A stretch of DNA of 32,776 bases from Candidatus Gastranaerophilales bacterium (lineage in GTDB: Bacteria; Cyanobacteriota; Vampirovibrionia; Gastranaerophilales; Gastranaerophilaceae): assembly GCA_944325825.1 (NCBI GenBank), contig CALVBP010000022.1, positions 1 through 32,776 on the forward strand, read 5' to 3'. The translations under genes and the position numbers were made by a program. Under the pieces are notes generated by a model that ran no database searches, was not told the DNA's origin, and saw nothing but the letters and a program-made list of their open reading frames with translations. Shown piece by piece: positions 23,142 to 32,776 of this stretch (positions are counted from its first letter, which is position 1; each line of letters opens with the position of its first letter).

Positions 23142-24248
23142 CTATTTTACTTTATTTACCCCGGAATCGTCTGCTGCAAGCAGGTTTTCACAAATATTTG
23201 TCTGCGGTACATAATCATATTCCGGCATGGCAATTTTGTTAATAATTTTTGAACGTTTCTTCCTGAAAAGCATATCAATAAACGCTTCTAGCCTTGTTAC
23301 AAATCCTGCTTCTCCCGTATGTTCATCAATAGTAAGAGATAAAAGCGGTTTGCCGGCTTCTTTAGCCTTTCTTGTTATGCGTTCAATCATAAGAGAATCA
23401 GGTCCGCAACCGAATGCATTTAATGTAATAATACCGTCAATTTTATTATCTTTAAGATAGTGCCCTGCTGTACCTGTCATTTCATATTCATTGGCCCAGT
23501 ATCTATGCTGACCGAGAGATGCAATACCTTCTTCCATCTGCTCATCAGTTAATTGGAGGGATGTAAATACTTTTACTTCCATTTTTTCGAGCTTATCAAA
23601 TATCTTCATACACGCTCTGTCATCATAAATATTATATCCGTGAGAGACCAGTGCAACATTGATGGGTGCAGTATTTGACTGGCTTTCTATAAAGACTTTT
23701 CCCTGAAGAGCATAGTTAATAGCTTTTTTATAACTCATTCCGGCTCTCATCATAACAAGAAAGTTATTATAGACTTTCCATCCTTGTTTTGAAGCTTTTT
23801 TTATAGCTTCAAAATCAGTTATCCCGAAAGGTCTGACAGCTTCTTGCAGAAAAGAATACAGCCCCTGATTTTTTGCGGACTTATCTAAAGTTGCTTCTAT
23901 TATTCTAAAATCACCTTTTACGACATTTCTAACCAAATCCGGCAGCCCTCTGATTTTAGAACAGTTATATATTTTAGGGGCAACAGACTGAAGAGATGGT
24001 ACAAAAATATTTTTAACCCCTTTTTTAATAAGATTAAGAATATGCCCGAGGTAAATTTTTATAGGCAGGCATGTTTCTGTAACAACAAGAGCAGAACCTT
24101 CTGACATAGTTTGCTTTGTAGTAGGATCAGAAAGTATAATCTTAAATCCCAGACTGCTGAAAAATCCATACCAGAATGGATAATGATTATAAAAAGACAT
24201 TCCTCTCGGAATCCCGATAACCAGTTCTTGTGTATTTTCTGCTGACAT
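23142..24248 (-). CDS. DUF2229-type protein, acyl-CoA dehydratase activase-related
   Basis: 369 aa from the ATG at 24248, chosen because AAGGAAA lies about 9 nt upstream and the conserved region IGIPRGMSFYNHYPFWYGFF starts soon after; an extra 16 in-frame residues upstream lack support. Conserved cysteines sit in TETCLPIKIYLGHI and AFGCGPDSL, and the C-terminus has LTIDEHTGEAGFVTRLEAFID. This is the DUF2229/2-hydroxyacyl-CoA dehydratase-activator-associated family, whose fused forms join an HSP70-like ATPase. No ATPase is nearby. The gene at 28526-29653 is a paralogue. It starts the operon with the permease and TPR genes. Confidence 0.82.
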   Translation of the reverse strand: MSAENTQELVIGIPRGMSFYNHYPFWYGFFSSLGFKIILSDPTTKQTMSEGSALVVTETCLPIKIYLGHILNLIKKGVKNIFVPSLQSVAPKIYNCSKIRGLPDLVRNVVKGDFRIIEATLDKSAKNQGLYSFLQEAVRPFGITDFEAIKKASKQGWKVYNNFLVMMRAGMSYKKAINYALQGKVFIESQSNTAPINVALVSHGYNIYDDRACMKIFDKLEKMEVKVFTSLQLTDEQMEEGIASLGQHRYWANEYEMTGTAGHYLKDNKIDGIITLNAFGCGPDSLMIERITRKAKEAGKPLLSLTIDEHTGEAGFVTRLEAFIDMLFRKKRSKIINKIAMPEYDYVPQTNICENLLAADDSGVNKVK

Positions 24249-24319
24249 ATGTAAATATTTCCTTAAAATTTTAACACAACCCATATAGTACCCCAAAAGA
24301 ATAATTTTGTCACGACAAA

Positions 24320-27179: not shown

Positions 27180-27791
27180 TTAAAGAATTTCCATAACCGG
27201 ATCTGATTGTTTTACTTCCGGAATTTCTTTTAGATTAGGCAGTTCAATCTCTTTTGGTGCATTTTGCATCTCGGTTGTTTTATCCGGAGCAACTGCTTTT
27301 TTCTGAGTATATTTTGCTATAACTGGATCAGGATTAAGTTGTTGTTCTTTATAATCTTTCATTATCTGAGATACAAATCTTTTTGTCTCACTGTAAGGGG
27401 GAATTGTTCCGTATTTTTTAACATTTCCCGGACCGGCATTGTATGCTGCAAGAGCAAGTTCTGTAGAGCCGAACATTTTGTACATCATTTTATAGTAGGT
27501 TAATCCGGCTTTAATATTTTCACTCAAATAGTACGGATTGAATCCCATCTTGTGAGCCGTGGATGGTAGTAACTGAAATACCCCGACTGCACCATGCGGA
27601 CTTTTAAGTTCATGTTTAAATCCGGATTCTTTTTTTGCGATGCTTAAAGCTAAAGCAGGGTCAACATCCATTTCGATAGAATGTTTGACAATGGTTTCCT
27701 TAATAACACTCTCAGGTGTTGTTGCCGCCCGGGCGTTCAAGGTTAGGAATGATACCAATGCAATAGCAGTTAAGATTATCTTTCTTACCAT
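27180..27791 (-). CDS. exported lytic transglycosylase (SLT domain)
   Basis: Cleaves peptidoglycan to 1,6-anhydro-muropeptides. Signal peptide MVRKIILTAIALVSFLTLNARA is followed by an SLT/lysozyme-like fold: catalytic Glu in LSIAKKESGFKHE, HGAVGVFQLLPSTA, and ALAAYNAGPGNVKKYG. About 65 residues of Pro/Lys/Glu-rich tail follow the domain (203 aa total). The start is supported by GAGGAT. Unlike the short or absent leaders of most genes here, it has a leader of about 200 nt with extensive potential base pairing, so expression is probably controlled at the RNA level. Confidence 0.92.
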   Translation of the reverse strand: MVRKIILTAIALVSFLTLNARAATTPESVIKETIVKHSIEMDVDPALALSIAKKESGFKHELKSPHGAVGVFQLLPSTAHKMGFNPYYLSENIKAGLTYYKMMYKMFGSTELALAAYNAGPGNVKKYGTIPPYSETKRFVSQIMKDYKEQQLNPDPVIAKYTQKKAVAPDKTTEMQNAPKEIELPNLKEIPEVKQSDPVMEIL

Positions 27792-27993
27792 AGAAATCCT
27801 CGTTTATTGTAAATTGGATTCTGTATACTATCTCGTAAATCCTCCCTACGGTTTCGCTATGTTCTCGTTTAGTTCCTATCGGGATGTCTTTCCTAAATTT
27901 TTATAACCAATGCCACATAAAAACTTGTTAGGCGACTCTTCCCGTTATTCCCCGCACTCCGGCTTGGATAAATAACTATACAGAAATTGTATT
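27792..27993 (-). promoter_or_regulatory. long structured 5' leader of the lytic transglycosylase gene, riboswitch candidate
   Basis: Given as plus-strand positions of the minus-strand RNA. A 9-bp perfect helix joins the two ends of the leader (27977-27985 with 27819-27827). Directly abutting it is a 6-bp helix (27971-27976 with 27944-27949). Next come a 4-5-bp CGGGA/TCCCG helix (27940-27944 with 27880-27884) and, inside it, a 10-bp hairpin (27917-27926 with 27895-27904, loop 27905-27916). A CGTA/TACG hairpin (27847-27850 with 27834-27837) is also possible. The closing helix ends about 27 nt before the ATG. I could not match it to TPP, FMN, SAM, cobalamin, lysine, c-di-GMP or c-di-AMP consensus sequences from memory. 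Confidence 0.6.
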
Positions 27994-27999
27994 ACATGC

Positions 28000-28028
28000 A
28001 TTATAGACTAAACATTTTTATTTTTCAA
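28000..28028 (-). promoter_or_regulatory. promoter of the lytic transglycosylase leader
   Basis: On the minus strand: TTGAAA (28023-28028), exactly 17 bp, TATAAT (28000-28005). Predicted start near 27993. It lies between the STAS-like gene and the leader, so the transglycosylase has its own transcript. Confidence 0.75.
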
Positions 28029-28069: not shown

Positions 28070-28405
28070 TTATACAAAAGAAAATTTGCGATGAATTAAT
28101 CTTCTTGAATTTTCTTCAAAATCCAGCTCGCTGACAAAGAGGTTTGTGCACTTATCAATATTCATTATATTAAATAGAGCAAAAATATCTGATGGGATAT
28201 TAAATATTCCGATATTTTTCTCTTTTGCAACTTCTGTCAAAGCCTCACAAAAATCTATAGTGCAATCTTGTACATAACTCAAATCCAGCCCAATTTGTTT
28301 TTGTTCATTCGAAAGTTTTGAAAACAGTCTGATACAAGTTCTTTTATCAAGTTTTGCACTTAAAGGGGCAAATATACAAACTTTATTGTCATAACGAATT
28401 TCCAT
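28070..28405 (-). CDS. STAS-like (anti-anti-sigma factor fold) protein
   Basis: 111 aa. The pattern IGLDLSYVQDCTIDFCEALTEVAKEK, IGIFNIPSDIFALFNIMNIDKCTNLF matches the beta-alpha layout of STAS domains, including the loop before helix 2 where SpoIIAA-type proteins carry the phosphorylated Ser in DSSG. Here that loop reads DFCEA, so the usual phospho-Ser is absent. It may be a non-phosphorylated scaffold or binding subunit rather than a partner-switching regulator. No anti-sigma kinase is nearby. No ribosome site; TATTAT lies 6 nt before the ATG. Fold call moderately sure, function unknown. Confidence 0.6.
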   Translation of the reverse strand: MEIRYDNKVCIFAPLSAKLDKRTCIRLFSKLSNEQKQIGLDLSYVQDCTIDFCEALTEVAKEKNIGIFNIPSDIFALFNIMNIDKCTNLFVSELDFEENSRRLIHRKFSFV

Positions 28406-28525: not shown

Positions 28526-29653
28526 ATGGCAAAAAGTAAAAAGATTAAAGTAGCATTCCCTCATATGGGGACGATTTCAATAGCCTGGGCTGCCGGTTTA
28601 AGAAAAATCGGTGTAGAACCCTATGTGCCTCCTTATACAAGTAAAAAAACCTTATCTTACGGAACTAAAAATTCACCTGAGGCAATTTGCTTACCATATA
28701 AGTTAATTCTCGGGAATTTTATTGAAGCTATAGATGGCGGTGCTGATTATGTTGCAATGATTACATCACCAGGAATCTGCCGTCTTGGAGAATATGGAAC
28801 AAATATTTATAATACGTTAAAGGATTTAGGGTATAAGGCTAATTATATTGAACTTTCTTTATATGATGGGATAAAGGGTTTGTACAAATTTCTTTCGGAG
28901 ATTTCAGGTAAGAATGACCCTATTTTAATACTAAGGGCAATAAATATTACAATGCGTAAGATTTTTGCTATTGATGATTTGGACAGAGCATTGTCTTATT
29001 ACAGAGCAAGGGAGATTAGATACGGAGAGGCTGAGAAAAATTACAAAAAAGCTTTGAGAATGATTGACAAAGCTAATTCTACAAGAGAACTTCATAAAGC
29101 TTACGACATGGCTTTAAAAGAAATTGAAAAAACAGAAATAGACCCGAACAGAGAAATTTTAAACGTTGATATTACGGGAGAAATTTATCTTGTTAATGAT
29201 GAATTTTCAAATCAGAATATTGAACGAGAACTCGGCAGAATGGGAGTTCAAACAAGACGAAGTTTAACTGTAGGAAGTTTTTTAAAGGATGCAATTATAC
29301 CAAAAGCATTCAGAGGCCCTGAGACACATCTTCAAAGAGCTGAAAGAATGGCCAAACCTTATCTAATGCGAGATATAGGCGGAGATGCTCTGGAATGCGT
29401 ATCAGATGTTGTTTTTGCGGATGAGAAAGGAAAAGATGGTATAATTCACATTTCACCTTTTACCTGTATGCCGGAAATTATGTCTCAAAATATTTTTCCG
29501 ACAATGAGAGGGGAACATGAGATTCCGATATTGACTCTTATTATGGATGAACAAACCGGGAAAGCCGGTTATATAACGAGATTGGAAGCTTTTGTCGATT
29601 TGATGAGAAGAAAAAAACGTGCAAAAGCTGCAAAGAATAAAACAAGAGTATAA
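28526..29653 (+). CDS. DUF2229-related / CoA-dehydratase activase-associated protein (paralogue of 23142-24248)
   Basis: 375 aa. The opening VAFPHMGTISIAWAAGLRKIGVEPYVPP, the cysteines in SPEAICLPYKLILGNFIEAI, TSPGICRLGEYG and SPFTCMPEIM, and the closing LIMDEQTGKAGYITRLEAFVDL parallel the protein at 23142-24248, and the C-termini are clearly homologous. A helical, charged insert (about residues 165-215) lies in the middle. Such cysteines could bind an iron-sulfur cluster as in 2-hydroxyacyl-CoA dehydratase components (inference). AAAAGGA precedes the ATG. It is monocistronic, with a terminator 6 bp after the stop. Confidence 0.8.
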   Translation: MAKSKKIKVAFPHMGTISIAWAAGLRKIGVEPYVPPYTSKKTLSYGTKNSPEAICLPYKLILGNFIEAIDGGADYVAMITSPGICRLGEYGTNIYNTLKDLGYKANYIELSLYDGIKGLYKFLSEISGKNDPILILRAINITMRKIFAIDDLDRALSYYRAREIRYGEAEKNYKKALRMIDKANSTRELHKAYDMALKEIEKTEIDPNREILNVDITGEIYLVNDEFSNQNIERELGRMGVQTRRSLTVGSFLKDAIIPKAFRGPETHLQRAERMAKPYLMRDIGGDALECVSDVVFADEKGKDGIIHISPFTCMPEIMSQNIFPTMRGEHEIPILTLIMDEQTGKAGYITRLEAFVDLMRRKKRAKAAKNKTRV

Positions 29654-32447: not shown

Positions 32448-32465
32448 TCATTGTTATAAAAATAA

Positions 32466-32776
32466 AGCAGCTCATAAGCCGTGTTCTGTTTTTAGATAAT
32501 CATCTGTCTGGTACTAAGATTGCTCTTAGTCTCAAGCGATTTTTTCCAAGCTGGGCGGACACCTCATAGCGCTTGACTCAATCTTGCATCCGACCGGGGG
32601 TTGCCTAGCCGGTATTTCTCAATACCGCTGGTGAAGCTCTTAACTCACCGTTGCACCATCGCTCCTGCTTATAAAGCGGTTAGCAGTATATTTTCTGTGG
32701 TCCTATCCGCCAGCTCACGCTGCCCGGAGTTTCTCCGGCGGTCTGTCCTTGGATGCACGGACTTTCCTCACCTTTT
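32466..32776 (-). ncRNA. rnpB: RNase P RNA, 5' end outside window
   Basis: Catalytic RNA that matures tRNA 5' ends. On the minus strand the conserved GAGGAAAGTCCG core (32758-32769) opens the visible part. Further on come GGTGCAACGGTGAG, AGATGATTATC and the 3' ACAGAACACGGCTTATGAG (32471-32489). The layout looks like the ancestral A type rather than the Bacillus B type. The 3' boundary is set near the GCTGC before a T-rich tail and is approximate. Only the few bases of the 5' strand of helix P1 are cut off. Confidence 0.95.

Follow-up and report, generated by a model that had tools for sequence, protein, structure and literature searches.

Gastranaerophilales are gut bacteria related to cyanobacteria, and in the stretch of DNA analyzed here (the window, 32,776 nt) a leader of about 200 nt precedes, on the minus strand, a gene for an SLT-domain lytic transglycosylase, which raises the question of whether this leader forms a regulatory RNA structure and how it might act on the message behind it. 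The gene (27180..27791, minus strand) encodes 203 aa with a match to PF01464 (E 5.6e-20) and an N-terminal signal-like segment, and its product is predicted to be a secreted enzyme; SLT relatives with solved structures include Slt70. A sigma-70-type promoter (TTGAAA-17-TATAAT, 11 of 12 consensus letters) was found on the minus strand at 28000..28028, read from 28028 to 28000, where the preliminary description had placed one, and the leader of about 200 nt that it had proposed was located at 27792 to approximately 27994. The number of promoter-like sites in the region proves nothing alone, as it was close to that of shuffled sequence (11 vs. 9.3); the TTGAAA box was kept in essentially all aligned leaders of the genus that reach that far upstream. 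Transcription would be expected to start near 27992-27994, about 8 nt before the first helix of the leader, P1.

When folded as a single sequence, the leader was not remarkable (z -1.11; 32 of 200 shuffles folded as well), and a structure that such a fold would not have revealed was instead proven by comparison. A DNA search of 65 genomes from the window's genus recovered a homologue of the leader in 60 of them, normally as one copy, with two genomes carrying it in two pieces, apparently at contig breaks. At each of the 30 loci initially examined, the SLT gene lies directly downstream. The five leaderless genomes of the genus yielded nothing closer than distant SLT proteins or fragments, with at most 58% identity, and the large leader was absent at the SLT loci inspected among them.

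The supported fold of the whole element (model R1, 167 nt, 27819..27985, minus strand) is one long, unbranched, irregular rod of 45 pairs, P1-P2-P2b-P3, with all of its parts on the minus strand. P1 is formed by the 5′ strand UUCUGUAUAGUUAU (27972..27985, the G at 27976 bulging out in this lineage) and the 3′ strand AUAGUAUACAGAA (27819..27831), so that the 9-bp helix 27977-27985/27819-27827, already noticed in the single sequence, extends via the bulge to 27972/27831 and reaches 13 pairs; among 56 leaders fitted to the model, 7 of these 13 pairs showed double changes and 91% were paired. In P2, AUCC..C CGG (27959..27969) pairs with CCG.UA.G..GGAU (27839..27851); its C-G pair 27962/27846 is replaced by U-A in nine of the 56 species, and the remaining pairs are nearly invariant. 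Double changes were found in all four pairs of P2b (27952..27957 with 27867..27872), which was paired in 98.7% of cases and accumulated 16 compensatory events on the tree, while the single-stranded GAGAACAUAGCGAAA (27852..27866) is among the most conserved stretches. P3 (27940..27946 with 27878..27884) includes the CGGGA/TCCCG helix of the preliminary description and has double changes in 7 of 7 pairs across the 56 model-fitted leaders. The upper P3 stem has a 5′ side made up of GUC, an invariant CCUAA, a CAA bulge and GUUUU (27920..27936), and a 3′ side made up of AAAAU, UUAGG, AAA and GAC (27886..27901). Its CCUAA/UUAGG helix showed no variation in 56 species, and one upper pair (columns 65-87 of the alignment used to test all column pairs) was U-A in 33 species and C-G in 23. 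This stem corresponds to a hairpin originally given as 10 bp, of which five pairs are conserved and the rest are variable. The apical loop (27902..27919) is variable, and some species carry up to about 45 nt of inserted sequence there.

Two elements of the architecture first suggested were not borne out by comparison. A second helix, 27971-27976/27944-27949, thought to abut P1, competes with it instead, with at least one mismatched pair in about half of the sequences and 0 compensatory against 24 breaking events on the tree, and the proposed multi-way junction is replaced by a fold that has no branch point. Two RNAalifold hairpins (TCC/GGA and GCG/CGU) were likewise dropped, being mostly invariant or one-sided and competing with P2, one pair of which covaries.

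Compensatory change in homologous SLT leaders, proposed at the outset as a check on the structure, was found by several routes. RNAalifold on the first alignment gave 35 pairs, 16 of them with double changes, and the 45-pair nested structure was obtained from a pair scan of the alignment followed by inspection. On a MAFFT alignment made without structure, 93.5% of the cells of these 45 pairs could pair and 20 pairs had double changes, a result that none of 500 shuffles equalled; the 56 model-fitted leaders, whose alignment leans towards the model to which it was fitted, gave 94.2% standard pair cells and double changes in 24 of 45 pairs (0 of 500 shuffles as high), and slid controls failed. 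Within the limit that both of the following tests used a tree built from the same short leader alignment, the sequence-only alignment yielded 46 compensatory branch events over 21 pairs, compared with 2.05 on average and 15 at most under a partner-shuffle null (n = 500) and 0-6 for slid partners, and a test of all column pairs (approximately 13,000) placed its top four covarying pairs within the structure, two of them passing E < 0.05 under a home-made tree-based null. Covariation, conservation and linkage to the gene thus give good support for a structured leader that acts in cis on the transglycosylase gene and is absent from Rfam; this adds such an RNA to gut Vampirovibrionia.

The rate at which the leader evolves bears on what it may recognize. 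On the same tree, changes per column were 3.3 in the leader, 15.4 at four-fold sites of the SLT gene and 2.3 at its codon positions 1+2, so that the leader evolves about five times more slowly than four-fold degenerate positions in the gene behind it. Invariant columns amounted to 47 of 168, many of them unpaired, including most of GAGAACA, parts of AUAGCGAAA and the CAA bulge. The near-invariant unpaired bases (GAGAACA, AG.GAAA and the CAA bulge), set between helices that change freely, are what a new riboswitch class would show if these internal-loop bases lined a pocket whose ligand, a metabolite or second messenger, altered the accessibility of the ribosome site on binding; the position ahead of a cell-wall hydrolase gene agrees with this, as does a conserved structure with covariation support in a 5′ UTR. 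A riboswitch function is possible on these sequence patterns, yet the full reading is unlikely to be the correct one, being weakened by the presence of the element on one gene per genome only and by an interior that is not conserved between genera, whereas known riboswitch aptamers are usually conserved even between distant relatives. The invariance of CCUAA/UUAGG, in turn, exceeds what pairing alone requires. A base-paired block unchanged in 56 species implies sequence-specific recognition beyond pairing, as by a regulatory protein that recognizes the rod (for instance at the invariant CCUAA-CAA-GUU / AAUUUAGG-AAA) and controls how the message is translated or decays; a protein that co-evolves with its site would fit both the use on a single gene and the interiors peculiar to each clade. 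Invariant paired bases may equally come from tertiary contacts, and we regard a protein-binding leader as rather doubtful.

In relation to known RNAs, no Rfam 15 family was found at or near gathering score over the leader in the window, and none over related leaders either; at permissive thresholds a single chance match to U4 (E 6.1) overlapped it. The leader is therefore new to Rfam, a possibility that the preliminary description had left to such a search, and the lack of a match to any known class also counts against a riboswitch. Cell-wall hydrolases are among the targets of the c-di-AMP riboswitch (ydaO-yuaA), which makes RF00379 the obvious comparison. Neither the window nor any of the 63 genus genomes searched gave a covariance match to it, whereas the B. 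subtilis and C. glutamicum controls did, in agreement with the preliminary description, which saw no match to this motif. The leader is not the known c-di-AMP riboswitch: it shares with RF00379 a long structured leader, a cell-wall hydrolase target and a cyclase in the genus, but it is an unbranched rod with other conserved bases. The lack of a diadenylate cyclase in the window's incomplete assembly seemed to refute any c-di-AMP connection; this argument was rejected because the cyclase (PF02457) is encoded in 60 of 63 genus genomes and its absence is probably an assembly gap. The cyclase, along with seven GGDEF matches over cut-off in the window's genome, counts in favor of the riboswitch reading.

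Among the closest known systems is the YjbJ motif (WRC-39-1), published as a weak riboswitch candidate from Streptococcus, where it occupies the 5′ UTR of a gene predicted to encode a lytic transglycosylase (PMC11109978). That motif consists of two hairpins with 40 representatives, covaries, is known from one genus only and lies about 30 nt before the SD and start codon (PMC11109978). Both are covarying 5′ UTR RNAs of a lytic transglycosylase restricted to one genus, but the present leader is one 167-nt rod in another phylum, and the two differ in outline. In the literature search, no paper combined Gastranaerophilales with riboswitch and none named Vampirovibrionia with noncoding RNA, and those naming both Melainabacteria and riboswitches had, judged by their titles, other subjects.

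The arrangement between the rod and the gene indicates at which level control may be exerted. The linker UCCAAUUUACAAUAAAC (27802..27818, minus strand) runs from P1 to the ribosome site, whose Shine-Dalgarno sequence GAGG (27798..27801, minus strand) was invariant in the first genus leader alignment, and across 55 species the distance from P1 to the SD is nearly fixed at 17-21 nt. As no conserved terminator was seen from P1 to the SLT gene, control is likely exerted on translation or stability and is unlikely to be transcriptional. Taken with the strict linkage to the SLT gene and the lack of an Rfam 6S match, these features also make it highly improbable that the rod is an independent small RNA, 6S-like or trans-acting, located ahead of the gene by chance, even though a long unbranched rod recalls some small regulatory RNAs in outline. 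As for an RNA thermometer, no covariation-supported helix was found over the SD, P1 ending at the distance given above.

The explanation we favor, and hold to be probable, is that the leader serves a single message as a structured cis-regulatory RNA, most likely acting on translation by way of P1 and the ribosome site next to it. With the rod folded and held by an effector, P1 would be closed and the adjacent linker would leave the ribosome site open; if the end of P1 opened, its 3′ end and the next bases (GAAUCC) could pair with GGAUUUC around the SD, and translation would be lowered. Translational control, this exchange between P1 and an anti-SD pairing and the direction of the exchange are inferred. 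Predicted folds left the SD about 40-50% unpaired on average, and a 4-bp AUCC/GGAU-type hairpin at the SD, weak on average, appeared in some of them (leaders L001, L014 and L022); the linker UCC (27816-27818) could pair with GGA of the ribosome site. The proposed anti-SD pairing draws on energy models and near-invariant bases, and lies beyond the reach of covariation because those bases hardly vary. Control of this kind would place at the RNA level the restraint of a peptidoglycan-cutting enzyme, an activity that bacteria must restrain.

Among 286 genomes of the order, the large form R1 was found confidently in the window's genus only, three matches outside it (E 0.2-0.44) being treated as chance, and 240 class genomes outside the genus gave 0 matches. 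In other genera the same SLT gene carries a shorter leader, mostly of 80-90 nt, with the same promoter type, a P1 hairpin, the nearly invariant linker CAAUUUACAA and ribosome site GAGGAUU, and then an apparent UUG start; CAAUUUAC of the window's linker is also present in these leaders. A short-leader model matched 117 of 276 order genomes at E 0.01, and when 20 weaker matches were fetched, 17 lay before an SLT gene and three were false, these three having no SLT gene downstream and looking like coding sequence. Double changes occurred in 9 of 10 pairs of the short-leader P1 (in an alignment fitted to P1). The interiors differ between genera, largely tracking the SLT protein tree, in which the proteins of the large form make up one clade whose neighbor (support 0.68) is a group including SLT genes without P1. 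A related clade (L141, L145, L146, L149 and L152) has a short leader only, without P1, and the leader element is thus dispensable there.

Structured 5′ stabilizers and ribosome stand-by leaders occur on bacterial mRNAs, and what is constant across genera (promoter, P1, linker and SD only, with interiors that turn over) would suit a passive element of this type, in which a 5′ hairpin protects the message and a single-stranded A/U-rich linker loads the ribosome with no signal involved. P1 beginning about 8 nt from the expected start agrees with it, as does the stem near the 5′ end with a single-stranded linker before the SD; a 167-nt rod with so many invariant columns, many of them unpaired, far exceeds that need, and the large invariant unpaired core kept genus-wide is unlike such leaders. 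We consider a purely passive role possible, though improbable. A more speculative reading, which we advance with considerable reserve, is that of a riboswitch-like class in which the frame (promoter, P1, linker and ribosome site) is constant family-wide and the sensing interior is replaced by lineage, the large rod of the window's genus being one of these sensors, which might respond to a cell-wall or cyclic-dinucleotide signal. With its constant frame and changing interior, the family-wide series of leaders lends itself naturally to testing how domains of regulatory RNAs are acquired and replaced.

Several minor observations were made on the short leaders. In L125-L155 and L186-L202, an inner helix covaries within one genus (GATCT/GGGTC, GACTT/GAGTC, GATTT/GAATC). 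In L199 (g24) and in L126 and L130-L132 (S2 type), complementary strands are repeated, allowing the exclusive pairings GGAAGU-ACUUCC or ACUUCC-GGAGGU, which resemble attenuator-like switches. The apparent UUG start of the SLT gene (GAGGAUUACAUUUUG) is unusual and kept across the genera of L125-L155; the window's genus has AUG. L197 and L198 (g26) contain a purine-rich SD-like stretch and an AUG inside the leader, and the frame opened there continues in register into the SLT coding sequence, so that it may serve as an alternative start. Elsewhere in the window's genome, the linker motif fell within coding sequence, apparently secA, and in two viral contigs that matched a short pattern the element was absent.

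Around the locus, a 111-residue protein without a Pfam match is encoded upstream in the same direction (28070-28405, minus strand), and a relative of it was present in 34 of 44 genus loci examined. The protein at 28526-29653 (plus strand) matches DUF2229 (CoA enzyme activase domain), and the one at 23142-24296 (minus strand) is similar to it by eye. A class A RNase P RNA lies at 32459-32776 (minus strand), cut by the window end.
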